64,000 nucleotides of DNA from a virus: positions 17,023 through 81,022 of the IMG/VR virus record IMGVR_UViG_3300025316_000011; one strand, 5' to 3'. Under the pieces are notes generated by a model. That model made no database searches and was not told the DNA's origin. It was given only the letters and a program-made list of their open reading frames with translations. The first letter of the stretch is position 1, and each line of letters begins with the position of its first letter. The position numbers and the translations under genes are program-made. Shown here in pieces: positions 18,624 through 38,823 of the stretch.

Positions 18624-19718
18624 TTAACAGGTTATATTGATGTTATTGCTCCCTCCGCATAATCCGCAGCGGTCGGTGACTATCTTTAACTTGTCGATCA
18701 TTTGACCGATGTCAGTCAAAAGATCACTCTCGCTTTTAGTGATAGGGTATAATCCTACATACTGGCTTTTCTGTAAATACACCATTTGGTTGATGCTCGT
18801 CACCAGTTCCCGTATCATCAGCAAGTCATGTTTTTTGGCCTTATTATCATCACAGTCGTCACATGGATCATCGCAGGTACAAAGTGTGTACTTAAACAAC
18901 TTCGTGTAACAGGCATTGGCTTTACATGTTTCAAGGATAGGTATGGTAACGACAATCCATGATGTAGGAGTAGGTATATGCTGTTGGTTGCCATTGTTGA
19001 CATAGGCAAGTTCAAATGTGTATGACCCGTCACCATAGGCAGAAAGGTCGATTATCACCGTAGTCCCGGCAAAGGGCAATCCCTCAACCAACAACGTACC
19101 ATCGTAGTTATAAAGCCTTGTCCGAACAACGACACACGATATGTTTATTGCTACCTCCCATTTCAGGCAGTCCGTCTTGGAAAGGACAAAAGCATCTCGG
19201 TCGATAAAGGTTATTGCCGTGGTTGCTATCGAAGTTGCCCCTACTGCCGCAACGGACAACCCTGCCAATGCGTAAATATCGGCAATGGTAAGGGCGGTAT
19301 ATACATAACTCCCTATTGTAAGCGGTTGCCCTACGACAAGCGGGGAGAAATCAGTAACATCGAGTGCGGGATTGGTCCCCGAAGATGAAGGGTTGATAGT
19401 CCCGGTAGTAGTCTTGATATAGAATACCCCGTTATAAAACACTATCCCGAATTGACCGAAATCAATATTATTCAGTGCATCCCATGTGTAGTTATACAGG
19501 GCATAGACTGATATCGTCTGCTGCGCCCCTACGGGGACACTCCATGAATCGGCATTGGATTGGTCAACATTGAAATCGGCGGCAAAGGCATCACTTGACC
19601 AGAATACCATTATCCCTGTCAAATCGCGTTCCCCCGCGGCATAAGGGGTAATGTCGCTGATACCTAAGTACCCATCGAGTGACTTGTCTAAAGAAATTAC
19701 GGGTGTAACCATGTCCAC
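18624..19718 (-). CDS. hypothetical protein with cysteine-rich C-terminal region (364 aa)
   Basis: The first ~240 residues form repeated Ig-like or fibronectin-like beta domains (SWSVPVGAQQTISVYALYNY, YGDGSYTFELAYVNNGNQQH). Then comes a cysteine cluster CTCDDPCDDCDDNK near residue 285 and CGLCGG near the end, linked by a helical segment. Such a CxCxxxCxxC pattern could bind metal or form disulphides. A second ATG six bases later is possible. Role unknown; position among fibre genes suggests a virion or adhesion part. Confidence 0.6.
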   Translation of the reverse strand: MDMVTPVISLDKSLDGYLGISDITPYAAGERDLTGIMVFWSSDAFAADFNVDQSNADSWSVPVGAQQTISVYALYNYTWDALNNIDFGQFGIVFYNGVFYIKTTTGTINPSSSGTNPALDVTDFSPLVVGQPLTIGSYVYTALTIADIYALAGLSVAAVGATSIATTAITFIDRDAFVLSKTDCLKWEVAINISCVVVRTRLYNYDGTLLVEGLPFAGTTVIIDLSAYGDGSYTFELAYVNNGNQQHIPTPTSWIVVTIPILETCKANACYTKLFKYTLCTCDDPCDDCDDNKAKKHDLLMIRELVTSINQMVYLQKSQYVGLYPITKSESDLLTDIGQMIDKLKIVTDRCGLCGGSNNINITC

Positions 19719-19749
19719 AAAATTAAGAAAAATTCATACTACTGTCAAA

Positions 19750-22700
19750 TTAAGGAGTGGTTAAGGCTACTGCCCTCTTATACCCTCCGTACACTCCTAA
19801 TGTCCCTGCGAGAACGCTGAATTTCTTCTGTCCAAGTCCTACTTCTGTAAGTCTCAATGTCGTACCTAAAATTGGAATAGGGTTTTTCATCCATTCTTCG
19901 GAAGCATAACCAAGCATAAGTTCGCTGTAAAGGTATGAATACTTCTGCTGGTCCTTCTTTGTCAATGTCCCGATGAAATACACCAACCCGGCTAAAGCCC
20001 CAGCATAGACAAGGCTGCGGCCTAAGTTGATACGCCTGTGAGTAGGTAAACTCTGCCAATACTTTAACGGGTCTTTCATGTTTTTAAAATCCCGTAAGTC
20101 GTGGATTACGTGTCTCCATGACTGAAAATGACCTTCCATGATATTCATTTCCCATTTTGTCATGGTGTTGCCTTCTTCATCAAGATATGGGACCCACCTT
20201 CCCCCTCCAATGGTTTCACCTGTCTTTGCATTGACACCAAGATTATTCAAATGTGGCATCATAAACATTCTGAACATCCCGACCATTTTACCCTTCCACC
20301 CGTTTGTCATCAATGCCTTTGTAGCATCGTCAATCCCTACATATACGAACTGTGAAGCATACCATTTGTAATGATTGTTCACAATATCCCAATCGTCTCC
20401 CCTGTCAGGGATAATGTCGCTATCACTCATTTCACCCTGTGACTTTAACCTTTCCGTAAGGGCATTATACATAGCCTTCTGTTTGGCAGATTGGCTCCCA
20501 TCGGAGTTGAAGTACCTCTTGTCTTTAAATCGGTCCCATGCTAAGTCCCCCGACTTAGCATCCACAGAATAGGCTTCCCATGCCCCGTTATGGATAAGTT
20601 GAGACACCAGAGAATGTACCCGCATCGTTTGGTCAACGGAGTTATCAGGTAACATCCCCCATGCTGCGGATAAAGCATTTTTCTTAACACTTAGGTTCTC
20701 CATCGGAGAATGAAGTAGGCTATCCTCCGTCTGATTCCAATAGTGAAACTTCCGGGCAATGGCCCATACCTTTCTACGGTTGGAGAACATTTTACCTGCT
20801 GCCTTTAAGTGGTCAGCCATAGTAGGTAGTATTTCACTCCTTAATTCCTCCGGCATTCCAATATTAGCGGCTGATTGAGCAATGGCATTAACGGTTGATT
20901 TGAATGCTCCCGCGATAAGAACTTTAGGCGCCGTTACGAACCTATACATCAGCAAAATGTTAGTCATGCCACGCATGGCGGTATTGGCTACGTCGGCTGT
21001 TTCCACGGGACCGATAAGCGGAACATCAATAGTTCCTCCGTTATCCCGTTTGTCTGCATTCTGTTTATTGACATAACGGTTAAAGTATTCCTCCATAAAT
21101 TCCCTTGTATGGCGAAGGTTTACGTTGTTGGAATTTTCCCATCCGGTCATTAAAGCCATCTGCGTATTATACTCCGGCAGGAACTCATTGCCAATCATTT
21201 CATCCCTGATACCTTTAAGCATAAAGTAGTTGCCGATTTTCTCAATGTCGTGAGAAGCCTTTTCGTTAAGGTCAGGGTCAAAAAGTTCAAAATGTGAAGT
21301 ATTCCCATCCCTTACCTCTACCAATCCTATCTTTTCATGTGTCTTTGAAGGGTCAAGCATTTGTTGGTTAATACTGCTGAACAACTTGGTCATGCTTTTA
21401 TCCTTGGTGACATCGGTGAAAATCTGGTCCGGTGCTTGGATATTGTCAAAGTATTTCTTCAACCCCTCTTTGAACTTACCCTGCATAAGCATTTCGTTGG
21501 CTGATTTGTCGATTACAGGAATATGACCTTTTGGTGCACGGGAGTTCATGTCGTTAAACTGCTGCTCGGCATCCTCCCATGTAAATTCGCTGATATTCAA
21601 ATCATCATGCTCGCTGCCTATTTCGGTAAATTGATGCTGCCAGTAAATGTCTGCTATGGTACGCTTTCTCATTTCATCGTACATGGCATTGGTGAGTTCA
21701 AGGTCGGCATCGGTAATCTTCCCTTTGTCATATAATGGCTTTGTTTCGGGGTCATTCTTGTCCATGTGGAGAACTGTTCCCCGCACCGTTACCTTATCAC
21801 CCTTTTTGTAGGATTTCCCACCATAGGTCAAGTCCTTACCCGCAACAACGTCCATATCCTTATAGAGATGGTCGAAGTATAAGTTTCCTGCGGTTCCGAC
21901 AAATGGCTGTGCTTTAATGCCATGTTGCGCCACTACCTTCTCAAGCAATGGGAATATCTTTTCATGGTATTTCCAATATGCCGATACGGTACGTTCGATA
22001 GACATTTGCATGGCCCCTGCGGAAGCCTGGATAAAGCTGCTGCGCTGTACCAATGGAGAAGGAATGTTTTCAAGTCCCCCCCCTTTTATGTCAGCGATTT
22101 GGTTTGCCGTCTCAATATGACCAAATCCTGTTCCCGGCCTTTTGAGTTCATCCAACGTGGCACTTACAAGTTGATAGATAGGGTCAGCAAACTTCTCTGT
22201 GTCGCTGCCTATCTTATGGTCTAATACCCTCTGCCATTCTGTTAAGGCTTTTATCTTTGCCTGTTTTGAACCTTTGGTGAGTAAGTCCCGCCTTGCTACG
22301 ACAGATTCCCTTTTCGTGTCAAATTCTTCGTAAGGGTCCATCATTTCTTCCTGATTGGAGAGATATTCACTAAGCTGGTTGATGAAAGGGGTGCGCAGTT
22401 TATCATTCTCTATCCGCTTGTTTTGGATGATACCACGGATAGTGATGCTCCCTACCATATCCATAAATTCAGGTTGTGCCTTTAAAATGTCAAGTATCTT
22501 ACCAATATCCTCAATGCTGTTTACCTGATAAGGCTTAACGCTGTTTTTACGTGTCTCAATGACTGATAACTTTCTGAAGGTAGCATCCATGCCTAACGCT
22601 TGCATCCCAATCATGAGTTTCCGGTAGCTATACATGCTGTCATTGTATTCTGCGGGGCCGCCTAATTTGCGATATTTCTTATCATCCATGATATCCCCCA

Positions 22701-25700
22701 AAATGTTCCGTTGCCTACCAATGACGGCATCCGTTCCCTGACCATAGGAGGTAACATCGAATATAGATACGTCAGCCTTCCCGTTTTTGTCAAATCCATG
22801 AACAACAACGATAGGGTCATAACCTTTTAAATCGTCTTTATACAATGACCTGAAACGTGGGTCTGCGTGTTCCGGCAGTTGGGAGTACCTCACTACGTCC
22901 ATGGCTCCCTGTTCAATACCAAGTAGGTTGATAAGGGTTTTAAGTACCTGTGGGTTGTAGTCTTTTAATCCTACCGTTGAAGCAATATCAGAAATGGTAG
23001 CCTGTTTACTGTTATGAGTAGCAGATAACCCAATAGGGGTATTGGCAAAAGATATGAAGTTCTGTATAAGTTCAGGTACTTTCCCGTCAATCATAGGATA
23101 TTTGGGTGTAACCTGGTTATGAATGGCTTCTTTTAACTTCTCGTCAGTATCGTATTTGTCAGCAGGGAAAACAGTCTGATGGGTTCCTTCGTTGTAATAA
23201 TAGTTACCCCTTGCATTTACTCCCGTCTTTTTAACTTCATTGAAGATTTCATCGGTGACTTCTTCCGGTGTGAGTTTTGAGAACCGTAAAGAATCAGCGT
23301 GATCTGATGCTAAATGAAGTGTAAGGTCGCTAATGTCCAATACAGGCATCTTTGCGGATCTGCTTTCAGCCTTACCCATTTTGTCAATGACTTTCATCTC
23401 GTCAGGGGTGAATGTGAACTTGTCTCCTTTTAATACCTGATTGGTGAAATCTTTAAAGAACTTTTCTAAGTCAGGGTTTCCAATGTCAAACCCGTCTTTT
23501 AATCCGAGTATGCCTTTTAACCCATTCCATAATTCGGTGACATAACGCTTCACGTTCTCATAGATACGTGTGGCGAAGGTTTTATCCGTCTCCGGTATCT
23601 TACTGTCACTTTCCCGTAAAAAGCGTTCTACGGCAGGAATAGAGGTAAACCCTCCCATGGTAGCCATCACTTCGTCAATGTGCTGCTGCCCGTCAAGTTC
23701 GGGATAAGTAATCTTTATCTGTTCCGATAATTTGGCAACATCGTTCCCCCCCTGACTGATAGCATCCTTCACGTAGTTTTCAAATTCAGCATACTTTTCG
23801 GGATTACGTGACTTATACACGGCATTCCATATATGCTGTAACTCATGTACCCCTGTGGATGATGTTACCTTGTCAATGTTGTAATGTATTCCCTGTCCAT
23901 CGACATATCCCCTTGCTGTTGGGCTAATACCTTTTTCCCGTAACGAATCGGAATCTTCCTTAATGAAGTTAAGTTGTTCAAACTGACCTTTTATTTTGTC
24001 AAGCAGGATTTCAAATGATTGTTGAACAACACGGTTATCTTGGATTTTGTTAAGGTCAATAGGCTTTTGAAATAGGGGCAATCCCTGTGCTACTTCATCA
24101 CGCATTTTGGGGGTAATGTCAATAGAATGTTGAGTTGTTGAACCATTAATTTTACGTTCGGATTCTATGGCAATTTCTTGTAATGTCTTTTGTATTGCTT
24201 CCTTAGATAGTTGATTCCCTACATCTATCGGAATTGTAGATAGAACGTCATCATTCCATGCACGTAATTGGTAGTCTCCAGTATGAGGTGATTTAACCAC
24301 AAACGAATCTGTAAAATCATTTTCATTTATAAGCCTTTTTGTACCAATATCTTTTGTTTTCACACTCCCCTTGCCCCACAAACCTTCTGCAACCTGACCG
24401 ACAATGCCTAATTTGCCTTCTGCCGGACTTCCGTAGAAACCTATCATGCCTTTGCCACCAACCTTAATATCCTGACCCGTCAAACTACGCAAAGTTCCTT
24501 TTGGTTCTTGTGCCATAAGTTTTTCAGCAACGTCCTTACCAATAATATCAGGCAAATCTTTAGGTTGAACTCCCGTTCTCTCTATTACAGTATTTCCATC
24601 ATGGTCGTATGCTTTAAGATTGCTACCGCTATAATGAATTTCGTTTATTTTCTTTGACAAATCATACCGTTCATTCTGCTGTTCACCCGTTGTCCAACTG
24701 ATACTTTCTGCACCTTCTTTTATAGCCTGTTTCAACGCAACTTTCAATCCAAGTTTTGTCCATGCTGTCGTTTCGGTGACGAAAGGGGCATGAGTATGTT
24801 TACTCTTGTTAGCATCTTTATTTAAAGTTTCTAACGCATTTTTAATCGCTTCTTCTTTTGTATTTCCTGAATCAAACACGAAATCTTGGGTTGCCCTGTC
24901 ATACCCTTTCGGGGCAGTTATTTTCCAATAATCCTCAAATTTAGTTGGAGGTTCTACTATGAATCCTGTTGGTAATTCAGTTATGCTGTTGGGTTCTTTA
25001 AACCCTTCTTTTTTCCCTTTCTGCCCCCAATCTGACTGAATTTCATCAACAAATAAAACTTTCTTTCCGTTAACGTCAACACGGGTGCTTAACCTTAAAT
25101 GTGCCAAAATGTTATGTTCATCGAAATGGGATGAACGGTAATAAAAATCCCTGCTTGCTAACACATACGAACGTGTATTGCGCTGTTGTGCATCGTTGAG
25201 TTCATCGTAAGGTACATTGTACTGTACGAAAGCCATTTGTTGAAGTTCATCGGTAGTAGGTTCCTTCGGTGGTAACGTTATCAATACCTCTTTGTAGTTC
25301 TCTTTGTCTCCGGGGAGTTGGTACGCCGAATATTTTGTTTGTGATTTTTCACGTTCTTCCTTACTTGTAAGTTTAGTCCTTATTTCATTATTTCTTAATT
25401 CTAATTTCACAAGTTGATCGAATGCTTTTTCTGGTATATATGTCGGTTTCTCCCCTCCATTTTTAATGAAATGATCTACGTCACCCCATATTTCATCTGC
25501 AAAATGTGTGTAATTAGAATCCCGTTCAACTCTACTAAAAATAGCATTTTTTGCGTTTATGATTAAATCATATTCTTCTTGTAATTTAACCTCATTATCT
25601 CCTTTTGAAACTTCCCGAATATCAATCCGGTTATCCTTCATCCATTGCTGGATTTCCCCTCTACTGAAAGTCTTTGAAGGGTTAGCCTTTAACATATCAT

Positions 25701-28700
25701 CTAACCCTGTATAGGTGAGTTCATCGCCCTTTACTCCCCGTGATCGTAACTGTTCGAGCCATTTGTTGCCAGTGAGTTTTTCCGCCTTAATATCCAAAAC
25801 GGCTTTTTCAACGGGAGAATAGAACCCATTGATAACATCAAGGTATGGTGATAATGGCTTTACCGTTGAGGTATTACTCATGGTCCCATCGGTAGTAGTC
25901 TTTTCGGAATCAAACCCTCCATGCGGATAGCGTTTGTAACCTTCGCCACCGGCATAAGCCTTCATTTCCGTAGAAAGGCGGGAATATTCATTTTGGTCAT
26001 TACCTATCCCATCAAGGTATCTGCCAAAGGCAGTAGATTGTTCATGTAACCCATTAGGCTTATCGTAGAACTCTTTTGGGATGATATTGATAGCAGAACC
26101 TTGTTTTGATTCAAGTCCGTTTGTGAGCAATATCTGATAGGCATACTTTGATTGTAAATCTTCCGGCAGTCTCTTAAATTCATCCTGTAAGAACTCAACA
26201 GTTTTTGGGTCAGTTTCACTTATAAGTGAATTTCCCCTGAAACTACGGACAAACATGTTGTCGGTGATGCTGTCATAAAATTCACCAGGATTTCTTACCC
26301 CTATCTTTTCAAGTTCCCCTATGGCTACGTTTTTAGGCATATCGGCAATGCCTTTTAACCATGATTGGTATTTGTCAAACCCTTCAACATATTCCTGCCT
26401 GTCTTTGGCTGAATATAAATGATAGTCCGTCCCGTTAAGGTCAATGGCTTTTTCCCCTATTGACTTCTTAAAGTACCTGTCAAGGAAAAGGTCATGGTAT
26501 GGCTTACCTCCACCAAATTCATCCATTGCATGGTGTTCGATATTGGTAAGTACCTTGTTAACCTCTTTTGACGGGTCAAGTTCCGTCCGGGTAGCCTTGC
26601 GGGACAAATCAGGCATTTGATCTTTAAACCTGCCATGGTCAATATCATAAATCAGGTTGTCAATATGCTTCATGTCCGGCTGATACCTGCCAAACATCTT
26701 ATTGACCATATCCATGAATGCCTGAAATATCCCTTTCGGGGTGTACCACGGGGACTTCTCCTTCTTTTCAAATGGTTTTTCAATGCCTGTCTTACCGATA
26801 TAATGAGCTATCCATTCCTCTGCTTGTAGGTCGGTAATCTTTTTGCCCCGCCATTGTGGGGAATAACGCTTCATGGCGGTTTTGGATTCATTCATTATGA
26901 TACCCTTACTTGGTTCATCCAAAAAGTAGTTATATACCATGTGGAAAAACTCATGCTTTGGTGATGTATATACAATCCCATCCCTCTGCATTTCAAGTCG
27001 TATCCTGCCATTATGAAGGTAGCCAAATACCTGTTTCCCGTCAATATTCAAAAACCCGATGCCATGTTTGTCCAGACTTTCACGAATATCAGCGGCAATG
27101 TCGGGATGAACGTTGGAATCTAACCAAGTGTTGAGGGTTTCTCGGCTGATTCTGCGGGTGTCTGTTTCACGGGATTCTTCAAAGATTGGCCCGTTTTCTT
27201 CTCCATTTCCATCCGCTGGTGCGCCACCCTCATTGCCAAGATTTGACTTGGGGTATACTTCGAGAACTGTTTTTTCATCTGATAAATATTTATATAGGTT
27301 ATTATAACTTTCTTCTGAAAATGGGAACCCTTGGAACTGATCTTTGTTGGCTTCAATTGATGATAACAGTTCTTCTTTTGTTGCCGTTGAAATATCAATC
27401 CCGTTATGTTTAACAAAAGTATCTAATGTCGCAAAGTCAGGGATTTCCGCATAAGCAGCCTTAATACGTTTTTTGCCTTCATTGATACTCATTCCCGTCT
27501 TTTCCTTATACTTGCGGGATATTTCCTTTTGGATTTCAGGAACTTTATCTTTAAATACGCTTTTGTCAGGATTGGAATTGATAAAATCAATAACATCGTC
27601 AGGAGTTATATTTGAGTTATAACCCTCATTCTCTTCGTTTACAAATAAATCAATTCCTTTTAAATTTGTGTCATTTGATTTATCAAGCAACCAATTTTTT
27701 TCTATCGGATGCTTCTTCTTAAACTGGCCTTTCTTTCTCCCTGACTTTTGTTCTACTTTAAGGGTGTTTTCATCCCCAAAACGAACATAACTCTTATATG
27801 AGAATTGTTCAGCTTCCAGCCTTTCCTGCCATGGTTGTAATCCACTTTGGGATGTCAACACTACCTGATCGTAGGCAGCAATTAAATCGTTAGGTGTAGC
27901 ATACTTCGATTCAACCGCCCATTGAGGAAACTGTTCTTCACTGATATTTTCTGAATCGTTTTTCCTATCCTGTAACAAAGATTCAACTTCCGATGTTCTT
28001 GCGGCACGAATGGATTGCTCACGAGTAGTAAGCGTTTCTCCAGCAAATAACTTGTCCGCAATGGTGTTTAACCTTTTATCAGAAACTACGTTGTTGTCAA
28101 CAAACTCCTTATATTCTTTGGCAGGAACCTTTTCATTTTTGTCGGCTTTAATCTTTTCCTTTTCCTGATTTACGAAGTTAATAGCTTCTTCTGCACTTCC
28201 TTCACCTTTGCCAAATGTCACGGGAGGATTCGATTCCGGCCCCGCTTGAACAACTTCACCGGGTTTTATGTCATTAATGAATACTGACGTATGTGGCAGC
28301 AAATCTAAGGTGTTGGTAAGGAATGTACCTGCCCTGCCAGAGAGTATGTCTGAAAGCCCGTATGCCTTGTCAAACGGCAACTCAACATTGCCAAGTTCGG
28401 ATGATCTTTCGATAATCCTGTCAAACATTTTGGCATATCCTTCTTTGTTGGCAAACTCTTTTTTAAGTTTCAAACGATAACCAGCAGCAGCGGTATCATA
28501 TTCCCATTTGCCAAAATCCCCAATGATTTTACCTATCTCTTTATTCTTAAATTGCGCCCTGTTATTATGAATAAAATTGAAAAGCATGGTCCCGTCCATC
28601 TCCCCGTTTTGGGTAAGGTATGTGTCGGTATCCTTCCATGCCTTTAAAATATCGGCAATGGATTTCCCTTCGGCAGCGGCAACCTCCGACATCTTCAATG

Positions 28701-31700
28701 TACGCAGGATGATATAATTTGATTCAGAAATAATGGCAACAGGGTCATATTGGATAATGAGTTTCTGTCTCATTGTCCCTTTCTCATATATGTTCTTTGC
28801 GGTAGCCATGTTCCCAAAGACTACTTTCCCCTCCATTTTGCCAATCAACTCACTGACGGGGATATACTTTGTCCTGCCGTCCTGGTTTTTACCCGTAACA
28901 GAATAAACTTTATAATCATCTCCCAACGGGATATTGTTGGATAATACCACAGGGTCATTTGAGAACTTACCCCGGCCTTCGGTGATTAAGTCTTTTAAGG
29001 CGGCATTATGATCTTCTGAAAGTCCTTTATGTGGTTGGTCAAGCATCATAAGATACCTGAACTTTTCAGGTAATTCTCCCGTCTCATTAACCGATTTCTC
29101 TATTTCGGCAAATGCCTTTTCTGATAACCGGCTCCCCGTGGATCTCTTTAACTGATCGAGAAATTCAGCTTTCTTTGCTCCGTCTTTAAATGTGAATCTG
29201 ACGGATAGCACATCATTCATCGTCACCTTATTCCCTAACGGGTCGGTCATATCCTGACTACGCAGATACACCAATTCGGGATTAAAATAGGCTGAAAGTG
29301 CATGGATATGCTTTGTGATGTCCTGTTTGGTAGTATGATCTTCGGCAGATACATCGCTGCCAAAAGTGTAATGAGTGTAAGCGTATGATTCCCCTGTTTC
29401 AGCGAATGCCGAGGTTTTCCCCTTTGCTACCTTCCCTACGGGTTTGGGAACATATTTATCCCTGTGGTTAGTGTCAATGTAGCTGATACCGCTTATATCC
29501 ATTTTTGACGGCTTCAATAACGGGTCGTCAATGTTAATGGCTTTAACTTCTGCTTCTGTGTCAGCTACCACAACTTTCAACGATATCCCGTCTTTGCCTA
29601 CCGATACTATACGGGCATATCCTTTTGGGTCAATGGTTTTAAATACATCTCCTGCCGTTGGTTTTACGGTAACAGGTAATATCTGGTCGGGGTCAGTTTT
29701 TCCCTTTACAGGTTCTACGGGTTTTACCCCCGTAGTCTGATCTCCTGTAACAGTCCTTAGTCTGTCAATTTCCCTGTCGTAGTACCGTTTGAGCAGGTCG
29801 TCCGGCAGTTGGGCCGGAGTTTCAACCCATGAGACATCTTCTTTACGGCCTTTGTTGAGATCGTCAGCTTTTCTATCCGGGAGTGCGACAAAATCACTTG
29901 CTCTGCCGGTGGCGGTATAGTAATCTGCATCGTTGCCATTCCTCTCAAAGCCGATATATACCTTCTTAAAAATACTGCCACGTATGGATTTCGGAGTTTC
30001 GCCATTGTCTTGTATGTCTTTATCGAGAACGAAAATGTTAGGATTCTTCTTTTCTTCTTCCGTCAAATCTTCGTAATCCAACGGATTAAGGATAAGTGCC
30101 TTTTCCCCTGATGGGTCGGCATAAAAAGCATCAACAACACCTTTGGCATCTTTAAAATACTGGATACCATTACCGTTTTCATCTACAAATCCGTTTGGCA
30201 TGGCATCACCTATACCCCTAAACACATCATGGAGTACATTTACCAATGGGTTGTTATTGTTCTTCCTTTCGGTAAGGGTTAATGACTTTGCTCCTACCTT
30301 TGAGATATTGTCCGTCCCCTGACGGATATCACCCAAAAACAGGATGGTCCCTGATTTACCAAAATGGTTTTTAATCAGGATAATGTCATTGTCTGATAAC
30401 CGCTGTGATTCGTCAATAATGATATGGTCCGCACGTTTTACACGTTCGATAAGGTCGGGACTATTCAGTACGTCCTCTAACCGCAGATATTCAGGCTTAA
30501 TGCCTGATAACCCTTCACCAAGCGATTTCTCATTGCCTACCGATACTCCAATGGCAACAACGTCTTTGGAAAATGGTTCTTCTGAATAGTACGAATGAAG
30601 GTCGTAAAGTCCTTTTAAGAATGATGTGCTTTTTCCCGTCCCGCTATCTCCACCGATAAAAATGGAGTTATCCATAAAGACACGGTTCATGGCATCAACT
30701 TCGGCCTGTATCCCTACCCCTTTCCATGTGGTAAGGTATTTGGATTCCGCTTCAACAACTTTACCGAGTATTTTGTGTGCATTGCCATTATCATTCACCA
30801 TAAAGGAAAAGGCAAGGCTTTGCGCTCCCTGAATCAACGGGTCAACGCTTTCACCTGTTTCGGTAAATGCTTTAAGCCTTGCTAACTCCATGCTCTTTGC
30901 ATGAACGCCAAAAGTCTCAATGAGTGAATTTATGGTGTTGATATAGCCTACGCTTGTCCCGCCTTTGCGCGTTAAATAATCATCTCCCGGTTTTAACTGA
31001 TACAGGGCATCAAGTGACGATTTGTATTCTTTGTTATCGTAAAATTGGGTATTCAGGTAGGTATCTTCAATACCCTGCATGTGACGATGCAATACAAGGT
31101 CGCTAATAAATGCTTCAAATTCTGGACTGTCAATAATCTTGTCCTGTAACTCAAACAGTCTTGATTTTATCTCTACAATCTGGCGGTTGGCTTCATGTAA
31201 CTTTTTACGTTCCCCGTCAGATAAGGTATATTTCATTTCCTTCCATGCTTCGGGAATGGATGGAATAGCCTTTACCAAGTCATTATATTCCGGCATAACG
31301 GAAACAATACCCTGTGCTATATTTTCTAAATCCCGCTTCGCTTTGTCAATACCCTGGATAAAGTATTTGTCGTTGTGGTTGTTTAACTTACTTTCATTAA
31401 GATCATCATACAACCTTAATATCGAATAATACCTATTGAGTAAGTTCAAATGCTTATTTCCCTGATCTTCCGATAAGGTAATGTCGTTTGGGGATAAATG
31501 AGGTTTCAGTTCGTCTTTTGCGCCAAGCAGATAGGCTGACCGAACAATCATTTTATTCTTTTCTACCTTGTCTTGTAAATCCTTAATCTTTTGACGGATA
31601 ACGGTAGGTTCGGAAGTGTCGGAAAACGACATATTGCTAATGGATAACGGATTATCACTGGTAATATCGTTAGCAATATCACCACTAAGCATGTCGCTGA

Positions 31701-34404
31701 TAACCTTTTCCTTGTCGGTAGATAAAAGGTTCTGTTTGTTTTCAAATAAGTTTTCTGTGCCTTCGTATGCTTTGGATAATCCGGCAACATAACCAACATC
31801 GGAATCGGAAAGTACGGGAGCAAACTTCTGCCTGTCTCCCGCCTCCGTAACCAATTTCCCCTTTAAGTCGAGAAATTCATTTTGTAAGTCCAACTGCCGG
31901 GACATATCAATTTTACTTGATACATCATTTATCATCCCGGTAATCTTTCGTACACTGTTTAACCTTTCAACATCATCGGTTAATTTACCGGCACCCCTTA
32001 TTTCTTCCCGTATCTGTTGGACAACGGGAGTTAATGCCTGTTCCTCTGATATAGCCTTCTGGTTGAACTCTTTTCTGCGGGCAATCTCTTTGTCCACATC
32101 GGTAGAGAAAACCTTACTTGCCTCATAGGAACGATTGAGGTTATCATCTTTCAGGTTAGCTTCAAACTTATCCCGCCATGCTTTGGATTTACGGTTTTCT
32201 TCCGTTATGGGATTTGTGTTCCCTACCGAATTACGGTAATCTTCATCGGTTTTGTCAATCACCGCACCCAACGAGATATGATTTGACTTTACAAGGTCGT
32301 TATATGCCTTGGAGAAATCCGTTCCGTCCTCTTTGGTGGTAATGTCTTTTATCCTTTGTTTGGCGGTTTCCTGCTGTTCCTGAATAGCTTTTATCTTTTC
32401 AGGGTCGGATTCCGTCTTTAATGCTTCATTCCCCGATTCAATGGTTTTGCCATTAACAATGACATCACGTAGTAACCCGATATTGTTACCAAAGTTTGAC
32501 CTTATGGCAGGGTCGGCATACATATTGGAAATCTGATCGGTATATTGAAGTTCCTGAACAAACGCCTGATAACGGGATTCATTTTCCGTCATGGCATCGC
32601 TGCCTTCGGTAATTGGGTTCCCGTCTTTGTCATGCGTTTCCCTGCCAAAGAAACTTTTATTCTTTAAGTCCTCCGATATTTTCAGGGCATCCTGTGTCTT
32701 ACCTGATGCAGAAATGTTCTCCATGGTAATGTCAGGCATCTTTGAAAACAGTCCCGGAGAATCAAAAGGTTTCCCCCTTAACGTCTCTACCCCTTTTCTT
32801 GCGGCACCTTCGATTGGAGAATAAAGTAATCCGCTGAAAAACCCACTGACGTAACTTGACATCATCTTATTCGGTAAGCGGTCAATTACGTTTGATATGA
32901 AACTCTTGTTGGCATCGTATTTATCAAACTGGCCTTTTCCCGGTGCTGCGTTTGGGTTCTTCGATAATGCACGTAAGTCATTTAATGTCTGTACCCCGGC
33001 TTCTACTGCTGTACCTGATGCCATCATGGTTCCCATCCCGTGTGCGCCAAGTAATAACTTCCCAACGGGTGTCCCGATACCTTTGACAAAACGAAGTTTA
33101 AGTTCAGGAGATAATAGAGCAAAATCAGTACCCCATTTAAGACCGTAACTTTTCATCTCGTTTGAAATGAGTTTAGTTGTCTGTGCCTTTAATTCGGCAC
33201 CCATAAGTCCTTTCGATAAGAACGTTGGCCCCGTCATAAAAGCGGTTGCGCCAAAAGCGGGTCCGGCTAACATCACCTGCCATGCTAAATCAGCGGGGTC
33301 AACCCCATTTTCTTTTCCCGCTTCGGTATATGAATCCATCCCCATTCCGGTAAATAAGGCAAAGGTGGCGGCACCATGCGCTGATGCTTCCGCTGCCATC
33401 CCCGAACCAAACATACCTGATGCTTCCATTGCTCCCCCTGCACCACGGGTAAGCAGCACAATAGGGATAAGTGACCCTATGGAATATGCTGCGGCTGAAA
33501 ACGAAGAAAACATACTCCCCTGCGCTTCCATGCCAACGGGAATCTGACTACGTTTACTTAAATTCTGAAATACCCTGCCTTCACGTTCTAACCATGAGTT
33601 ACTGTCTTTTCCCGTGGTCATAAAGTCAATGAACTTATTGCTCTGTTCCATGACGGAACCTACCATAGATTGAACACCTACAAGTCCATTATATACCCCT
33701 TTGAGTAGCGCACCATACCAGTTCTCCGTCATTGACTGCGGTCCCCATGAGGATGCTATCTGACTACGAAGGACCTTTGGGTCGTCTGCCGCCACGTTAC
33801 GGTAAATGGAGTTTCCGTACTCATCCTGGTCTATGATACGTACCTTTGATGGGTCGTCTCCCTGTAACAACGGAGCCAATGAAGGAATAAGTGGTGAACC
33901 AATGCCAATAGGGACATTGGCTAACTTCTGTAAAAACCCCGGAGGAGAGTAGGGTACTTTCTTCCCGTCGGTGTCAACGACAAAACCTTTTGAAGCTGCC
34001 AACTCGTCACGGGTAGCGATAATCCTACCGTATTTGTCAACCCCTTCCGGCATCCCACCTGTGACGCTTTCATCGTATTCGGGTGTCTTTAATTCAGGTT
34101 TGTCGTATTGCCAGAAAGGGGCTACGCTGCCATTGTATTTAGTGGTAGCATATCCTCCGTAGGAATCATGTGCCTTTTGGTAAACTTCGTGGAATTTGTC
34201 TTTAGTGATACCTTCGAGCATCCCTCCTTTTGAGGCATATTTCTCGAAAGACTTGTCCTCCGGCAAAAGGGTAAAAGTGTAACCATTTTCCCGTGCATGA
34301 GTAGCCATGTCCTCATGGGTAAAACCTCCGGCAAACATCGGGAGGAAATCTCTTTTTTCAACTTCTTTTTTTTCAGGAGTTATGGTAGGTTGAGTATCTT
34401 CCAC
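19750..34404 (-). CDS. giant polyvalent protein with helicase and zincin motifs (4884 aa)
   Basis: A single uninterrupted frame of 14.6 kb. Hydrophobic patches lie near 295-400, a long helical region follows to ~1200, then an SF1 helicase-like ATPase: Walker A GGDSGTGKST (1251-1260), Walker B with DES at 1331-1333, LFLGDIRQ, and YTATGRASD near 1494. A first zincin motif HEFFH is at 2484-2488. Segments around 2900-3450 (EIQSDWGQ at 3121-3128, ITPKMRDEVAQGLPLFQ) match the PLxRFG-type part of phage polyvalent proteins. A second zincin motif HELQH is at 3520-3524. A hydrophobic span lies near 4805. Such giants are thought to be packaged and ejected into the host to protect or prepare phage DNA. 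Individual activities are inferred from motifs. Confidence 0.85.
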   Translation of the reverse strand: MEDTQPTITPEKKEVEKRDFLPMFAGGFTHEDMATHARENGYTFTLLPEDKSFEKYASKGGMLEGITKDKFHEVYQKAHDSYGGYATTKYNGSVAPFWQYDKPELKTPEYDESVTGGMPEGVDKYGRIIATRDELAASKGFVVDTDGKKVPYSPPGFLQKLANVPIGIGSPLIPSLAPLLQGDDPSKVRIIDQDEYGNSIYRNVAADDPKVLRSQIASSWGPQSMTENWYGALLKGVYNGLVGVQSMVGSVMEQSNKFIDFMTTGKDSNSWLEREGRVFQNLSKRSQIPVGMEAQGSMFSSFSAAAYSIGSLIPIVLLTRGAGGAMEASGMFGSGMAAEASAHGAATFALFTGMGMDSYTEAGKENGVDPADLAWQVMLAGPAFGATAFMTGPTFLSKGLMGAELKAQTTKLISNEMKSYGLKWGTDFALLSPELKLRFVKGIGTPVGKLLLGAHGMGTMMASGTAVEAGVQTLNDLRALSKNPNAAPGKGQFDKYDANKSFISNVIDRLPNKMMSSYVSGFFSGLLYSPIEGAARKGVETLRGKPFDSPGLFSKMPDITMENISASGKTQDALKISEDLKNKSFFGRETHDKDGNPITEGSDAMTENESRYQAFVQELQYTDQISNMYADPAIRSNFGNNIGLLRDVIVNGKTIESGNEALKTESDPEKIKAIQEQQETAKQRIKDITTKEDGTDFSKAYNDLVKSNHISLGAVIDKTDEDYRNSVGNTNPITEENRKSKAWRDKFEANLKDDNLNRSYEASKVFSTDVDKEIARRKEFNQKAISEEQALTPVVQQIREEIRGAGKLTDDVERLNSVRKITGMINDVSSKIDMSRQLDLQNEFLDLKGKLVTEAGDRQKFAPVLSDSDVGYVAGLSKAYEGTENLFENKQNLLSTDKEKVISDMLSGDIANDITSDNPLSISNMSFSDTSEPTVIRQKIKDLQDKVEKNKMIVRSAYLLGAKDELKPHLSPNDITLSEDQGNKHLNLLNRYYSILRLYDDLNESKLNNHNDKYFIQGIDKAKRDLENIAQGIVSVMPEYNDLVKAIPSIPEAWKEMKYTLSDGERKKLHEANRQIVEIKSRLFELQDKIIDSPEFEAFISDLVLHRHMQGIEDTYLNTQFYDNKEYKSSLDALYQLKPGDDYLTRKGGTSVGYINTINSLIETFGVHAKSMELARLKAFTETGESVDPLIQGAQSLAFSFMVNDNGNAHKILGKVVEAESKYLTTWKGVGIQAEVDAMNRVFMDNSIFIGGDSGTGKSTSFLKGLYDLHSYYSEEPFSKDVVAIGVSVGNEKSLGEGLSGIKPEYLRLEDVLNSPDLIERVKRADHIIIDESQRLSDNDIILIKNHFGKSGTILFLGDIRQGTDNISKVGAKSLTLTERKNNNNPLVNVLHDVFRGIGDAMPNGFVDENGNGIQYFKDAKGVVDAFYADPSGEKALILNPLDYEDLTEEEKKNPNIFVLDKDIQDNGETPKSIRGSIFKKVYIGFERNGNDADYYTATGRASDFVALPDRKADDLNKGRKEDVSWVETPAQLPDDLLKRYYDREIDRLRTVTGDQTTGVKPVEPVKGKTDPDQILPVTVKPTAGDVFKTIDPKGYARIVSVGKDGISLKVVVADTEAEVKAINIDDPLLKPSKMDISGISYIDTNHRDKYVPKPVGKVAKGKTSAFAETGESYAYTHYTFGSDVSAEDHTTKQDITKHIHALSAYFNPELVYLRSQDMTDPLGNKVTMNDVLSVRFTFKDGAKKAEFLDQLKRSTGSRLSEKAFAEIEKSVNETGELPEKFRYLMMLDQPHKGLSEDHNAALKDLITEGRGKFSNDPVVLSNNIPLGDDYKVYSVTGKNQDGRTKYIPVSELIGKMEGKVVFGNMATAKNIYEKGTMRQKLIIQYDPVAIISESNYIILRTLKMSEVAAAEGKSIADILKAWKDTDTYLTQNGEMDGTMLFNFIHNNRAQFKNKEIGKIIGDFGKWEYDTAAAGYRLKLKKEFANKEGYAKMFDRIIERSSELGNVELPFDKAYGLSDILSGRAGTFLTNTLDLLPHTSVFINDIKPGEVVQAGPESNPPVTFGKGEGSAEEAINFVNQEKEKIKADKNEKVPAKEYKEFVDNNVVSDKRLNTIADKLFAGETLTTREQSIRAARTSEVESLLQDRKNDSENISEEQFPQWAVESKYATPNDLIAAYDQVVLTSQSGLQPWQERLEAEQFSYKSYVRFGDENTLKVEQKSGRKKGQFKKKHPIEKNWLLDKSNDTNLKGIDLFVNEENEGYNSNITPDDVIDFINSNPDKSVFKDKVPEIQKEISRKYKEKTGMSINEGKKRIKAAYAEIPDFATLDTFVKHNGIDISTATKEELLSSIEANKDQFQGFPFSEESYNNLYKYLSDEKTVLEVYPKSNLGNEGGAPADGNGEENGPIFEESRETDTRRISRETLNTWLDSNVHPDIAADIRESLDKHGIGFLNIDGKQVFGYLHNGRIRLEMQRDGIVYTSPKHEFFHMVYNYFLDEPSKGIIMNESKTAMKRYSPQWRGKKITDLQAEEWIAHYIGKTGIEKPFEKKEKSPWYTPKGIFQAFMDMVNKMFGRYQPDMKHIDNLIYDIDHGRFKDQMPDLSRKATRTELDPSKEVNKVLTNIEHHAMDEFGGGKPYHDLFLDRYFKKSIGEKAIDLNGTDYHLYSAKDRQEYVEGFDKYQSWLKGIADMPKNVAIGELEKIGVRNPGEFYDSITDNMFVRSFRGNSLISETDPKTVEFLQDEFKRLPEDLQSKYAYQILLTNGLESKQGSAINIIPKEFYDKPNGLHEQSTAFGRYLDGIGNDQNEYSRLSTEMKAYAGGEGYKRYPHGGFDSEKTTTDGTMSNTSTVKPLSPYLDVINGFYSPVEKAVLDIKAEKLTGNKWLEQLRSRGVKGDELTYTGLDDMLKANPSKTFSRGEIQQWMKDNRIDIREVSKGDNEVKLQEEYDLIINAKNAIFSRVERDSNYTHFADEIWGDVDHFIKNGGEKPTYIPEKAFDQLVKLELRNNEIRTKLTSKEEREKSQTKYSAYQLPGDKENYKEVLITLPPKEPTTDELQQMAFVQYNVPYDELNDAQQRNTRSYVLASRDFYYRSSHFDEHNILAHLRLSTRVDVNGKKVLFVDEIQSDWGQKGKKEGFKEPNSITELPTGFIVEPPTKFEDYWKITAPKGYDRATQDFVFDSGNTKEEAIKNALETLNKDANKSKHTHAPFVTETTAWTKLGLKVALKQAIKEGAESISWTTGEQQNERYDLSKKINEIHYSGSNLKAYDHDGNTVIERTGVQPKDLPDIIGKDVAEKLMAQEPKGTLRSLTGQDIKVGGKGMIGFYGSPAEGKLGIVGQVAEGLWGKGSVKTKDIGTKRLINENDFTDSFVVKSPHTGDYQLRAWNDDVLSTIPIDVGNQLSKEAIQKTLQEIAIESERKINGSTTQHSIDITPKMRDEVAQGLPLFQKPIDLNKIQDNRVVQQSFEILLDKIKGQFEQLNFIKEDSDSLREKGISPTARGYVDGQGIHYNIDKVTSSTGVHELQHIWNAVYKSRNPEKYAEFENYVKDAISQGGNDVAKLSEQIKITYPELDGQQHIDEVMATMGGFTSIPAVERFLRESDSKIPETDKTFATRIYENVKRYVTELWNGLKGILGLKDGFDIGNPDLEKFFKDFTNQVLKGDKFTFTPDEMKVIDKMGKAESRSAKMPVLDISDLTLHLASDHADSLRFSKLTPEEVTDEIFNEVKKTGVNARGNYYYNEGTHQTVFPADKYDTDEKLKEAIHNQVTPKYPMIDGKVPELIQNFISFANTPIGLSATHNSKQATISDIASTVGLKDYNPQVLKTLINLLGIEQGAMDVVRYSQLPEHADPRFRSLYKDDLKGYDPIVVVHGFDKNGKADVSIFDVTSYGQGTDAVIGRQRNILGDIMDDKKYRKLGGPAEYNDSMYSYRKLMIGMQALGMDATFRKLSVIETRKNSVKPYQVNSIEDIGKILDILKAQPEFMDMVGSITIRGIIQNKRIENDKLRTPFINQLSEYLSNQEEMMDPYEEFDTKRESVVARRDLLTKGSKQAKIKALTEWQRVLDHKIGSDTEKFADPIYQLVSATLDELKRPGTGFGHIETANQIADIKGGGLENIPSPLVQRSSFIQASAGAMQMSIERTVSAYWKYHEKIFPLLEKVVAQHGIKAQPFVGTAGNLYFDHLYKDMDVVAGKDLTYGGKSYKKGDKVTVRGTVLHMDKNDPETKPLYDKGKITDADLELTNAMYDEMRKRTIADIYWQHQFTEIGSEHDDLNISEFTWEDAEQQFNDMNSRAPKGHIPVIDKSANEMLMQGKFKEGLKKYFDNIQAPDQIFTDVTKDKSMTKLFSSINQQMLDPSKTHEKIGLVEVRDGNTSHFELFDPDLNEKASHDIEKIGNYFMLKGIRDEMIGNEFLPEYNTQMALMTGWENSNNVNLRHTREFMEEYFNRYVNKQNADKRDNGGTIDVPLIGPVETADVANTAMRGMTNILLMYRFVTAPKVLIAGAFKSTVNAIAQSAANIGMPEELRSEILPTMADHLKAAGKMFSNRRKVWAIARKFHYWNQTEDSLLHSPMENLSVKKNALSAAWGMLPDNSVDQTMRVHSLVSQLIHNGAWEAYSVDAKSGDLAWDRFKDKRYFNSDGSQSAKQKAMYNALTERLKSQGEMSDSDIIPDRGDDWDIVNNHYKWYASQFVYVGIDDATKALMTNGWKGKMVGMFRMFMMPHLNNLGVNAKTGETIGGGRWVPYLDEEGNTMTKWEMNIMEGHFQSWRHVIHDLRDFKNMKDPLKYWQSLPTHRRINLGRSLVYAGALAGLVYFIGTLTKKDQQKYSYLYSELMLGYASEEWMKNPIPILGTTLRLTEVGLGQKKFSVLAGTLGVYGGYKRAVALTTP

Positions 34405-34415: not shown

Positions 34416-36308
34416 TTAATATTTGCCTTGGTTACTGTATTGGTCCATTGCTTGCTGCTTGGCCTTTCTTTCTGCTTCATCTCTTGCCTCAATCGCACGT
34501 TGTGTACCCTTGGCATATTCTTTGTTTTCAAACTGAATAAGCGTTTCCGGCTTTACTGGCATATCCAACGGAATGATCTTATATTCCTGTTTGCCTTTTT
34601 TACCTCCGGCAAATTCATCGTACCATACTGATTCATATTGCCCTTTGTCAACACCTGATTCTATGTTTACTCCCTGAATGCGTTTAAGGTTTTTAAAGAA
34701 AGGACTATCCGCAGGGACAGCCATACGGACCCTTACGGTAGGAACCACGGCACGCCTTAAATTATCAATAGGCTTTTTTACGTCCATAAGGTCAAGGGTC
34801 TTTCCCCCGTCTTTTGATTCAGGTATGAAGTTTTCCTGAACCTCCCCTGAAATCCCTACAATACGGGCATGGGAACCTTCAAAGATAGACATGGAATTTG
34901 GTGCGCCATCGGGAGAATAAAAGAAGTTCATACCCTTTGAGAAATAGTCAGGCATGATACCCCCTTCATGGGTCATAAATGAAGTTGCATTGTTATTAAA
35001 CTCTGTGATGTTACTCAATGGGACTTCCCAACGATTAAGTTGTAATTCTTCCTTTGTCTTTACGTCAACAAACTTTTCAGTTCCTCCAGAAGGTCTTAAT
35101 GTTCCACCTTCCTTATATGCTATTTCAGATGGTCCTGACGGTTTTGATTCACCTGTAAGTATTTTAGTAAAACCACCCTTAACTACGTTTCCTTCTCCCG
35201 TCCCTGCATCTTTAACTTTGATATGTTCGGTAGCATCCGTTACGGTTGTTCTGCCGGGAATTTCAGATAATATAAGGTCTTTACCGTAACCCTTAATCAT
35301 ATCGTTTAACCGTTCCTTTTCGTTACGGTCAAGTTTCTGCATATTCAAAAGTTTGGAAACGATACCGGATTCTTCTTTGTTGAAGGTAAAAACCCCTTTA
35401 TCGTTATCCATCGAGAACCCTATATTGCCATCCTTTGTCTGCCTTGCATGGAGTAGTTTCTCATAGAATTTACTTGTAAGGTCAAGTCGGGCAGGTTCCG
35501 TCATGTTTTCCATCATGTTATTCGCTGCATCCCTCAACTTATGTGCATCGGTGCTGCGAGTAAGTACGTTGATATAACTCATGTTTTCAGTTCCATAGAC
35601 GGGAATTACTACCTGCGGTGCATAAGTTACTTTACCATTGGCATCGGTAACGGGAATAGGTACAGATTCTTTACTTTTACCTGCTTTACCATATTCTTTA
35701 TCAACAAACTTATTCCATGAACCTGTGTAGTTGATTTTGGTATCTAATCCCGTGTGAACAGGCATACCTGACTTTTCCCCCGGTGCATAATCAAAACCTC
35801 TTACCGCTTCGATATGGGTAAGCCATCCTGGACCTCCCTCTTTGTCCCCAATGACAGGCATATAAACACCGTTATCATCGGTAAGTGCGATACTGTTTGC
35901 GGTGCTTTCATCTCCACCTTCTACAAGGGCTTTTTCGTAACCTTTGGACTGAATGTAGTTTTGCTTATACAGGCTGGATTCCGCCTGTAACTTCATTTTC
36001 TGCTGGTCAATATCCATCAATTCCTTGTTCCACTCCCGCTGCATATCGGATGAAGGGATATTCTGTGACTTGGAGAAGTATTCCATCATCTTACTCCTAA
36101 GACCTTGTTCCCGTCCCGATAAGGATGATTGCTTTTCAAGGTAATACATTTTCTGACCGGGAAGCATATCTTCGTCAGCATGTTCCTCTTTGTATTGTTC
36201 CTTTTGGTAAAAGTCAGGCTGTGATGATTGCCTTAACTGCTTCATCTCGTCAGCCTGACCTTCTACCTGTGGATTTCGCTGCGGAGCCGGGAGTACCTGC
36301 CATGCCAT
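34416..36308 (-). CDS. hypothetical internal virion protein (630 aa)
   Basis: The N-terminal ~130 residues are helical and rich in Gln, Lys and Glu (EQYKEEHADEDMLPGQKMYY, MDIDQQKMKLQAESSLYKQN). The rest is mixed alpha/beta, and the end is again a charged helix (AIEARDEAERKAKQQAMDQY). It lies directly upstream of the giant protein and downstream of the GroES-like gene. In phages of similar layout this slot holds cargo proteins ejected with DNA. No family recognised; the assignment comes from position. Confidence 0.6.
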   Translation of the reverse strand: MAWQVLPAPQRNPQVEGQADEMKQLRQSSQPDFYQKEQYKEEHADEDMLPGQKMYYLEKQSSLSGREQGLRSKMMEYFSKSQNIPSSDMQREWNKELMDIDQQKMKLQAESSLYKQNYIQSKGYEKALVEGGDESTANSIALTDDNGVYMPVIGDKEGGPGWLTHIEAVRGFDYAPGEKSGMPVHTGLDTKINYTGSWNKFVDKEYGKAGKSKESVPIPVTDANGKVTYAPQVVIPVYGTENMSYINVLTRSTDAHKLRDAANNMMENMTEPARLDLTSKFYEKLLHARQTKDGNIGFSMDNDKGVFTFNKEESGIVSKLLNMQKLDRNEKERLNDMIKGYGKDLILSEIPGRTTVTDATEHIKVKDAGTGEGNVVKGGFTKILTGESKPSGPSEIAYKEGGTLRPSGGTEKFVDVKTKEELQLNRWEVPLSNITEFNNNATSFMTHEGGIMPDYFSKGMNFFYSPDGAPNSMSIFEGSHARIVGISGEVQENFIPESKDGGKTLDLMDVKKPIDNLRRAVVPTVRVRMAVPADSPFFKNLKRIQGVNIESGVDKGQYESVWYDEFAGGKKGKQEYKIIPLDMPVKPETLIQFENKEYAKGTQRAIEARDEAERKAKQQAMDQYSNQGKY

Positions 36309-36810: not shown

Positions 36811-38823
36811 TTATTTCCTCATATACATATCCGCCATCAATTTTGAATAGACCGCATCCTTCATCCTCTGCTTTTGTTTGAGGTCGTCATATTCAACCGG
36901 ACCGTAGATTAGGTTCACTAAAGCCTTGTATCTTTCAGTATCTTGGAGACCTGCGGTTTTAAGTCTTTCCAATTCCAAGGTAGCGTTCTTCGTGGCTACA
37001 TCGGCATCCATGGCTGACTGCGTAAGGCTAAACTGATTAGAAGTCCGTGCGTTTTCCGATTGAGCCTTTGTCTCCATTTCAGCATTAATCCCGGCATACT
37101 GCTCCCCGACTTTATTGGTGGCTTCGATACCAGAAGCGATAAGGCTTGGTATCATGTCGGTTCTGCCTGTTTGGGTAAGTTTCTCCACCCCTGCGTTTAT
37201 CTGCCTTCCTACTTCGTCTAAAGTAGCTTTTGGGTTCTGATAGCGGGGTGTTACCATTGTGGGAGTTCCGGCAGGAGTATTAGGTACTCTTACCTGTTGA
37301 GGTTTGGGTTGAAGAATGGTAATCAGGTTGGCGGCTACATCCCCTAACATTTTCTTTTCAGCATATCCAAATTTAAACTTACTACCTGTTTCAGTTGTTT
37401 TAGACAAATCAGGAGGATTCATCAGAGATTCAGGGTCCATTGTTTGGGGATCTTCTTTTTGAGGGAATAGTCCGCCTGATTTCGCAATATCATCCCATCC
37501 CGATAATGCCATGTCGGGGGTATCTTCAAACGTTGCATGTGGAGGTGTCTTAGGTGCAAAACCTGCCACATTTTCATCATATTTCCAATTAGGGAATGTC
37601 CCTAATCCCTTTGTTTTTCCACTAAGATCAAAAGCAGGATTCTCATATTTCCCTAATCCAATACCACTTGTCTTTAATTTACCTAATCCGATATTACTTT
37701 TAAAATCCCCTCCCGTGTCGGAGGTCCCTGTCCCCAAATCTCCCCTTACTCCTTTTTCAATAGGCACTTCATTGACGGGGCTTTTACTTGTCGGTGCGCC
37801 TGTAAATGGATTTTTGCCTTCCTTTACCAACTGCTTCATCCTTTCTGTATTCGGATGTGCATTACTCGATGTCCCAAACAGTGCGGAGAAATTAACAAGT
37901 CCTGTGTGTGGATTGAAAAATTCATCCCCATCTGGTGGATTATCTGCTCCGTTGACTGCTTTGCCAACACCATTGACATTTGGGATGCTATCGAGAATGG
38001 ATTTTAATGTTTCCCCTGAATTAAGTCTCCCCTGTTGATCTTTGTTTAGAATGGCATGGTTCTTAGGTAACTTTAAATCAATCCCGCCTTGAGCATGTGA
38101 CGGGCCTACAAGCGGCTTTTTGCTTATGATCTTATGGTTGTTATCAAATTCAACAACGATTTCTCCACCTTCGGCTTCAACGGGTGCGGAACCTGACTTG
38201 TTTTTGCCCCCATTTTTAAGAACAGGTTCTTCAAACGTGGCTTCCTTTGGAGTAGAAGGAGATAAGGCTTCCGTTGTCCCTGGTGCATCCATAACGGTCG
38301 AAGTAGGTCCCCCAATCAATGATGTGCTACCTGATCCCGGCAATGCGTTTTGAGTAAATGCGGGAGACGAACCACCTACCGATGCCCCATTTTGTAATAC
38401 AGAAGAAGTCATTCCCGCCCCTTCAAATGCACCTGCGCTATTTAATCCACCAACAACGGATGATGCTGCGCTTGCAACACCCATAACGGTATTATGGGTC
38501 TGCTCCATACCGTTGATTTTGTCAACCTGCTTTGGGTCGAGTTCTGTCCCGTTGATAAGGCTTACGTCACGATATGCTCCCGCCACTTTCCCCAAAGAAC
38601 TCCCTGCGGCATTCTGCGATACTGCGGTTTTACCCGATCTCCGGTATAACTTTTTTTTGGCTTTGTCGGCGGCACTCCCGGCAGCAAAACCATATATGCC
38701 TCCTGCCACGGCACCTACTCCAGCACCTATTAATGTCCCCACTCCTGGAATTACAGACCCTATCGTTCCACCTACGGCAGCACCCGTTACGGCATCGCTA
38801 CCTGCTGTTCCCCATTTATCCAT
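36811..38823 (-). CDS. glycine-zipper virion/cargo-like protein (670 aa)
   Basis: The N-terminus (residues ~10-55) is a glycine-zipper membrane segment (AVGGTIGSVIPGVGTLIGAG, GVGAVAGGIYGFAAGSAADK). The middle contains EAEGGEIVVEFDNNHKI with GPSHAQGGIDLKLPKNHAI, a pattern I associate with internal proteins of crAss-like phages. The C-terminal ~170 residues are helical (ATKNATLELERLKTAGLQDT). A membrane-penetrating ejection protein is a reasonable reading. Pro-, Gly- and Ser-rich linkers separate the parts. Function is inferred. Confidence 0.6.
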   Translation of the reverse strand: MDKWGTAGSDAVTGAAVGGTIGSVIPGVGTLIGAGVGAVAGGIYGFAAGSAADKAKKKLYRRSGKTAVSQNAAGSSLGKVAGAYRDVSLINGTELDPKQVDKINGMEQTHNTVMGVASAASSVVGGLNSAGAFEGAGMTSSVLQNGASVGGSSPAFTQNALPGSGSTSLIGGPTSTVMDAPGTTEALSPSTPKEATFEEPVLKNGGKNKSGSAPVEAEGGEIVVEFDNNHKIISKKPLVGPSHAQGGIDLKLPKNHAILNKDQQGRLNSGETLKSILDSIPNVNGVGKAVNGADNPPDGDEFFNPHTGLVNFSALFGTSSNAHPNTERMKQLVKEGKNPFTGAPTSKSPVNEVPIEKGVRGDLGTGTSDTGGDFKSNIGLGKLKTSGIGLGKYENPAFDLSGKTKGLGTFPNWKYDENVAGFAPKTPPHATFEDTPDMALSGWDDIAKSGGLFPQKEDPQTMDPESLMNPPDLSKTTETGSKFKFGYAEKKMLGDVAANLITILQPKPQQVRVPNTPAGTPTMVTPRYQNPKATLDEVGRQINAGVEKLTQTGRTDMIPSLIASGIEATNKVGEQYAGINAEMETKAQSENARTSNQFSLTQSAMDADVATKNATLELERLKTAGLQDTERYKALVNLIYGPVEYDDLKQKQRMKDAVYSKLMADMYMRK

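Follow-up and report, generated by a model that had tools for sequence, protein, structure and literature searches.

A single open reading frame (ORF) of 4884 codons in a distant crass-like phage is best explained as a counterpart of the crassvirus cargo block (gp47-like protein, RNA polymerase and gp49-like protein), fused in one frame and with the polymerase core deleted, for which both cargo and enzymatic roles are proposed. We put the probability of this reading at roughly two in three. It is supported by the match of the first of two zincin-like domains to gp47 of phage crAss001, the match of the C-terminal region to phi14:2 gp076 and crAss001 gp49, and an order of parts that is the same as in the relatives of this phage. 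A preliminary description of the DNA had pointed to a pair of zincin-like sites, to an ATPase/helicase of SF1 type and to neighboring virion proteins, all of which held up, but its PLxRFG-type module (the motif is not present anywhere in the giant protein) and its view of the zincin pair as unusual did not, and it overlooked the main point, namely that a crassviral virion RNA polymerase block has probably been fused in one ORF from which the polymerase core is gone.

The window, by which we mean the whole 64-kb stretch of DNA that was analyzed, is part of an 81,022-bp IMG/VR record that is linear, without terminal repeat, and unclosed. As previously described, the giant ORF is a single gene (19750..34404, minus strand), which starts with a GTG codon at 34404 and continues without an internal stop to 19750; the product has a predicted mass of 549 kDa. 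Searches of Pfam, PHROGs and the PDB with the whole giant returned nothing firm, and neither phage records, searched at the nucleotide level with its gene, nor viral contigs, scanned directly with the whole protein, gave a match. When the giant was searched by segments, weak helicase matches were obtained, along with a partial PHROG match in the region of the EIQSDW module (see below).

The phage is of crassvirus type, but distant, as judged from the portal (tblastn, E to 5e-19), TerL (E to 3e-13) and capsid (phrog_11589, E 1e-21) matches. We refer to it as a distant crass-like phage, and not as a proven member of the Crassvirales, because the DxDxD polymerase is absent from the 81 kb and the record is unclosed. 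In the direction of transcription, TerL, portal, capsid and tail genes are followed by genes for proteins of 1416, 670 and 630 aa, and then by the giant. The 1416-aa protein (38827..43077, minus strand) is a muzzle-type tail protein, 37–41% identical to those of the relatives, which in turn match the phi14:2 muzzle gp082 with E-values of 6e-7 and 2.5e-8. The 670-aa gene (36811..38823, minus strand), in the position of cargo protein 1, encodes a glycine-rich, hydrophobic N-terminus, has homologs in the relatives G046 and G047, and gave a weak phmmer match to crAss001 gp45. The 630-aa gene (34416..36308, minus strand), on the N-terminal side of the giant, is matched by homologs at the equivalent site of G046 and of G047 and, from its position only, may encode cargo protein 2. 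On the C-terminal side is a 364-aa gene (18624..19718, minus strand) that is 40.6% identical to the gene flanking the giant of G046.

Several other genes were seen in passing. A 138-aa protein encoded between the two cargo genes (36324–36740) appears GroES-like by eye, and a 1104-aa protein (14486–17800) with a signal-like N-terminus and β-helix-like repeats, but no PHROG match, is probably a tail spike. The window also encodes a C5 cytosine DNA methylase (7265–8035), an SMC/RecN-like ATPase (3275–4696) and a protein with a weak PAPS-reductase-like match (8438–9292). Locus L007 includes a fusion of an SNF2-type helicase with an N6/N4 DNA methylase (2242–4431, Pfam) and, by eye, a TnpB/IS605-type OrfB protein with a CxxC zinc finger (4433–5623, minus strand) and proteins with long arrays of short repeat units (NTGDRNTGY at 15250–16203 and NATVKAWD at 11794–12417).

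In crAss001 and phi14:2, the giant proteins of the transcription block come after the genes for the muzzle and cargo proteins 1 and 2, which is also the position of the giant in the window. The crAss001 proteins gp47, gp49 and gp50 were detected in virions by mass spectrometry (PMC10172136), and gp078, gp077 and gp076 of phi14:2, which are collinear and correspond to the order gp47-like protein, polymerase, gp49-like protein, are all virion proteins according to the record annotation. The earlier suggestion that a site beside virion proteins fits injection is now better founded, since the position and parts of the giant match crassvirus proteins found in virions. Homology and position suggest that the giant is itself virion cargo; its position suggests that it may be injected with the DNA.

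Relatives were found by TerL alignment, after which homologous giants were searched for in the same records. (A scan with a muzzle alignment added one further relative, in which the giant is cut off at the contig end.) The giants in the same slot are 5428–6586 aa long. In G046 (IMG/VR 3300013137_000017), there is one ORF of 6586 aa (17569–37326; loci L180 and L181), and its two neighbors are homologous to those of the window's giant. Its parts are, in order, the helicase (Walker A at residue 1427), zincin 1 (HESMH, 2703), a crass-type RNA polymerase (DYDGD, 4455), zincin 2 (HEIAH, 5247) and the C-terminal region. The G046 and window giants thus share the single ORF, the flanking genes, the helicase, both zincins and the C-terminus; they differ in that G046 has the polymerase with its DYDGD motif and no EIQSD motif. 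In G081/G048, the same parts are divided between two genes. The first, of 5331 aa (where the contig end truncates it) to 5835 aa, encodes the helicase, zincin 1 and the DxDxD motif; the second, of 1565–1729 aa, encodes zincin 2 and the C-terminus. G083 likewise has two genes, of 5428 aa (helicase, zincin 1, DxDxD) and 1595 aa (zincin 2, C-terminus). In G057, the polymerase is in a separate gene from zincin 2 and the C-terminal part; the second gene contains an EIQSDW-like module, which immediately precedes zincin 2, and matches phi14:2 gp076 at both ends. G047 yielded the N-terminal 1595 aa only.

The N-terminal part of the giant (residues 46–1150; 30955..34269, minus strand) is homologous to that of G047, with blastp aligning residues 46–1554 at 24% identity and an E-value of 2e-84. 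It is followed by the predicted SF1-type helicase domain (residues 1158–1508; 29881..30933, minus strand). The motifs previously noted in this domain were all present: Walker A (GGDSGTGKS) at residue 1251, DESQ at 1331, and YTATGRASDF, with TGRA at 1499. A motif III (GDIRQ, or GDxxQ) at residue 1358 had been missed, and the motifs are in the order expected for SF1. Motifs I, II, III (GDxxQ) and VI are invariant across four related sequences. Profile matches (AAA_19, AAA_30, PhoH, RecD and HelD) were weak and below the cutoff, and the helicase profile had no match above decoys among the crassvirus cargo proteins compared. Together, the motifs support the assignment of an ATPase/helicase of SF1 type with putative activity.

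Both HExxH sites reported earlier, HEFFH (residues 2484–2488; 26941..26955, minus strand) and HELQH (residues 3520–3524; 23833..23847, minus strand), were found where described, while composition alone would lead to the expectation of 0.12 such motifs in the giant. The first lies in zincin-like domain 1 (residues 2429–2622; 26539..27120, minus strand), which hhalign aligned to the HEAFH domain of crAss001 gp47 (96.3%, E 1.8e-9) with a score of 64.9, compared to a maximum of 26.3 for decoys shuffled so as to retain HExxH. Zincin-like domain 2 (residues 3455–3707; 23284..24042, minus strand) has homologs in G046, G048/G081, G083 and G057. The candidate third ligands are E2530 (26815–26817) and E3578 (23671–23673), respectively. 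H2484, E2485, H2488 and E2530 are invariant in four sequences at 19–26% identity, and H3520, E3521, H3524 and E3578 in all aligned relatives. Since each HExxH and its glutamate, 42–54 residues further on, are among only 10–11 invariant positions in alignments at 19–26% identity, the motifs are not due to chance. An hhalign comparison of zincin 1 with zincin 2 (81%, E 1.2e-5) shows that they are related.

Fold prediction, which the earlier description had proposed as a check, was run with AlphaFold2 (AF2) and was not decisive: it gave low-confidence models with mean pLDDT of 51–54 for either domain and no significant Foldseek match. For zincin 2, the order of elements (a helix, three strands, the HExxH helix and the Glu helix, with core pLDDT of about 60–80) is suggestive, and among its weak PDB matches the minigluzincins 4qhf, 4qhi and 4jix had the highest target-normalized TM-scores (TMt 0.38–0.41, E 2.9–8.5). 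The zincin 1 model, also of low confidence, had no significant match in the structure search. A zincin fold is therefore likely, but no more than likely, for the HExxH domains. A fold of 1200 residues extending across both zincins was considered and dropped, because MAFFT had placed zincin fragments on the EIQSDW region. Other known crassvirus virion proteins also contain HExxH: phi14:2 gp081 has HEFTH and HEFIH and gp076 has HEIMH, in addition to the HEAFH of crAss001 gp47. The zincin profiles did not match the sites in gp081 and gp076 above shuffled controls.

At the other end of the giant, the C-terminal region (residues 4186–4870; 19795..21849, minus strand), which includes a hydrophobic helix near residues 4794–4813, was aligned by hhalign to phi14:2 gp076 (92%, E 6e-7, score 60.1) and to crAss001 gp49 (74%, E 3e-5, score 47.4), compared to a best decoy score of 25.5.

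The polymerase of the relatives is recognizable by its catalytic motif, which reads RIPTT..S....SDYDGD and resembles that of crassvirus polymerases. When a profile of four such sequences was used, crAss001 gp50 and phi14:2 gp077 ranked first, with scores of 26–32 (best 31.6) against a decoy maximum of 23.0. This match is modest, covering about 57 columns, but it includes the catalytic motif, and additional matches occur in collinear order. In the window's giant, the corresponding segment of roughly 2300 residues is absent between zincin 1, which ends near residue 2622, and zincin 2, which starts near residue 3455. No D[YF]DxD motif was found in any ORF of at least 50 codons in the 81-kb, unclosed record. 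A polymerase HMM had no match in the record either, but an HMM made from two relatives also missed the polymerase of a third; the polymerases of this clade diverge too fast for a negative HMM result alone to stand. What is present is a remnant resembling the C-terminal part of the polymerase (residues 2601–2807; 25984..26604, minus strand), which was matched by an HMM of the relatives (E 2.4e-5), and with phi14:2 gp077 added (E 9.4e-8); the window's giant was left out when the HMM was built, and over 2000 decoy ORFs were included in the test. In every relative, the polymerase is either part of the giant or encoded right next to it. That this phage has lost its virion RNA polymerase is therefore probable, but only probable, given the unclosed record and the limits that divergence sets to a negative HMM result.

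Where the polymerase would be expected, the giant carries the EIQSDW module (residues 2861–3460; 24025..25824, minus strand; core residues 3023–3324), which is common to giant proteins of other phages. At least 515 related stretches, on more than 500 contigs, were found in IMG/VR, the best with 36–43% identity, and the module HMM gave an E-value of 7e-88. The core (24433–25338) has invariant Y, E, H, R, Q, S and D residues (loci L008–L087). There was no match to a Pfam or PDB family, and this module of the giant proteins of phages seems not to have been described before. The window's TerL was found in none of 44 carrier records tested. Among ORFs above 2500 aa with the module, 19 of 23 also contain HExxH, and one has a GGDEF domain; of 78 ORFs in which the EIQSDW motif occurs, only 2 have PLxRFG. 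The simplest account is an in-frame deletion of the polymerase plus the gain, or survival, of the EIQSDW module.

We considered the possibility that the polymerase has been retained, either in an unassembled part of the genome or in a form too divergent to be recognized, and that the giant is the accessory part of the cargo block. The record is indeed unclosed, the HMM is insensitive within the clade, as noted above, and in G057, G083 and G081 the parts of the block are already spread across at least two genes, so that relocation is possible. However, the polymerase never leaves the side of the giant in the relatives, and here both neighbors match those of G046; D[YF]DxD is missing from the 81 kb, and the polymerase C-terminal remnant lies at the site of the would-be deletion, all of which makes retention unlikely. 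That two contigs were misjoined inside the giant, making the missing polymerase an artifact, is far less probable still. This is a metagenome assembly, and a near-identical second copy was looked for and not found; however, the frame is open across all junctions, over 4884 codons, the genes on either side are those expected for the clade, and in G057, too, an EIQSDW-like module lies immediately before zincin 2.

With a helicase and two zincins, the chain combines several unrelated enzymatic domains, as do the polyvalent proteins of Iyer et al. (2017), and it might be read as a typical example, with effector modules injected against host defense and a crassvirus match that is positional only. 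The presence of EIQSDW in other phages' giants, most of the large ones with HExxH and one with GGDEF, is in keeping with this. However, particular cargo proteins of crassviruses are matched by zincin 1 and by the C-terminal region, and the parts are ordered as in the polymerase-bearing relatives. These matches largely refute a purely polyvalent reading, which we regard as quite improbable, and leave the acquisition of one polyvalent module. A fused cargo block that has lost its polymerase core remains our preferred reading. Its remaining parts would be the N-terminal region, the SF1-type helicase, the gp47-type zincin, a stub resembling the polymerase C-terminus, the acquired EIQSDW module, the related second zincin, and the gp49/gp076-like C-terminus.

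Under the fused-block reading, the giant would most likely be packaged in the capsid beside the two upstream cargo proteins and be extruded, together with the DNA, through the tail. Once there, inside the cell, the helicase may act on incoming DNA or nucleoprotein, the zincins could be working peptidases that trim the chain or neighboring cargo, at maturation or at entry, and transcription of the early genes would then fall to the host polymerase. The fuller scenario, in which the polymerase was discarded, the gap was refilled with a module from other phages' injected giants, infection starts on host transcription and the block serves as a delivery chassis, seems to us evenly poised between right and wrong.

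For the zincins, self-processing is the leading but tentative proposal, at somewhat less than even odds. Zincin-mediated processing has been proposed for P1 DdrB-like proteins (PMC5512222), but processing of a polyprotein cannot be the sole use, since HExxH is kept in crAss001 gp47 and phi14:2 gp076, where the cargo genes are separate. Any cleavage may also follow injection, because the zincin-bearing polymerase of N4 is packaged uncut (PMC5512222). The same two observations would fit zincins that are effectors cutting host proteins after injection instead of trimming phage cargo; this is possible, if somewhat doubtful, as no target is known and processing has also been proposed for the P1 proteins. 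A structural role, or a relic, is rather unlikely. As for the pair itself, 36% of polyvalent proteins have 1–5 zincin domains, and about 8% have more than one (Iyer et al. 2017, PMC5512222). Two zincins in one protein are thus uncommon but known, contrary to what was first thought, and phi14:2 gp081 alone has two HExxH sites.

A virion RNA polymerase counts as a hallmark of crass-like phages, and its apparent loss, not the zincin pair, is what appears to be new here. The Epsilon group was first reported to lack the transcription block (PMC7886860), but such a block was subsequently identified there (PMC11054128). In the present lineage, the block is one ORF of 6586 aa in one member and an ORF of 4884 aa without RNA polymerase in another, which shows that the polymerase, the zincins, the helicase and the C-terminus can be separated as modules. 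The role of the non-polymerase parts of the crassvirus cargo becomes testable, including zincin action where there is no polymerase to release, and the EIQSDW module provides a link between the crassvirus cargo and polyvalent proteins from other phages.

Compared to the crassvirus cargo block (crAss001 gp47/gp49/gp50; phi14:2 gp078-gp077-gp076), the giant has the same slot, a gp47-type zincin, a gp49/gp076-like C-terminus and a remnant resembling the polymerase C-terminus, but it is one ORF, has no DxDxD core, contains a helicase unmatched in the crassvirus proteins compared, and has the extra EIQSDW module. With the polyvalent proteins, it shares unlike enzymatic domains in one chain, zincin peptidases and predicted injection; its backbone, however, comes from the crassvirus polymerase block, and its helicase is SF1, not SWI2/SNF2 (PMC5512222). 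The N4-like virion RNA polymerase and P23-45 gp96 are likewise giant virion proteins in which a zincin or metallopeptidase site is fused to transcription machinery (PMC5512222, PMC10770324, PMC12633501), but both keep the polymerase, which in N4 belongs to another family.
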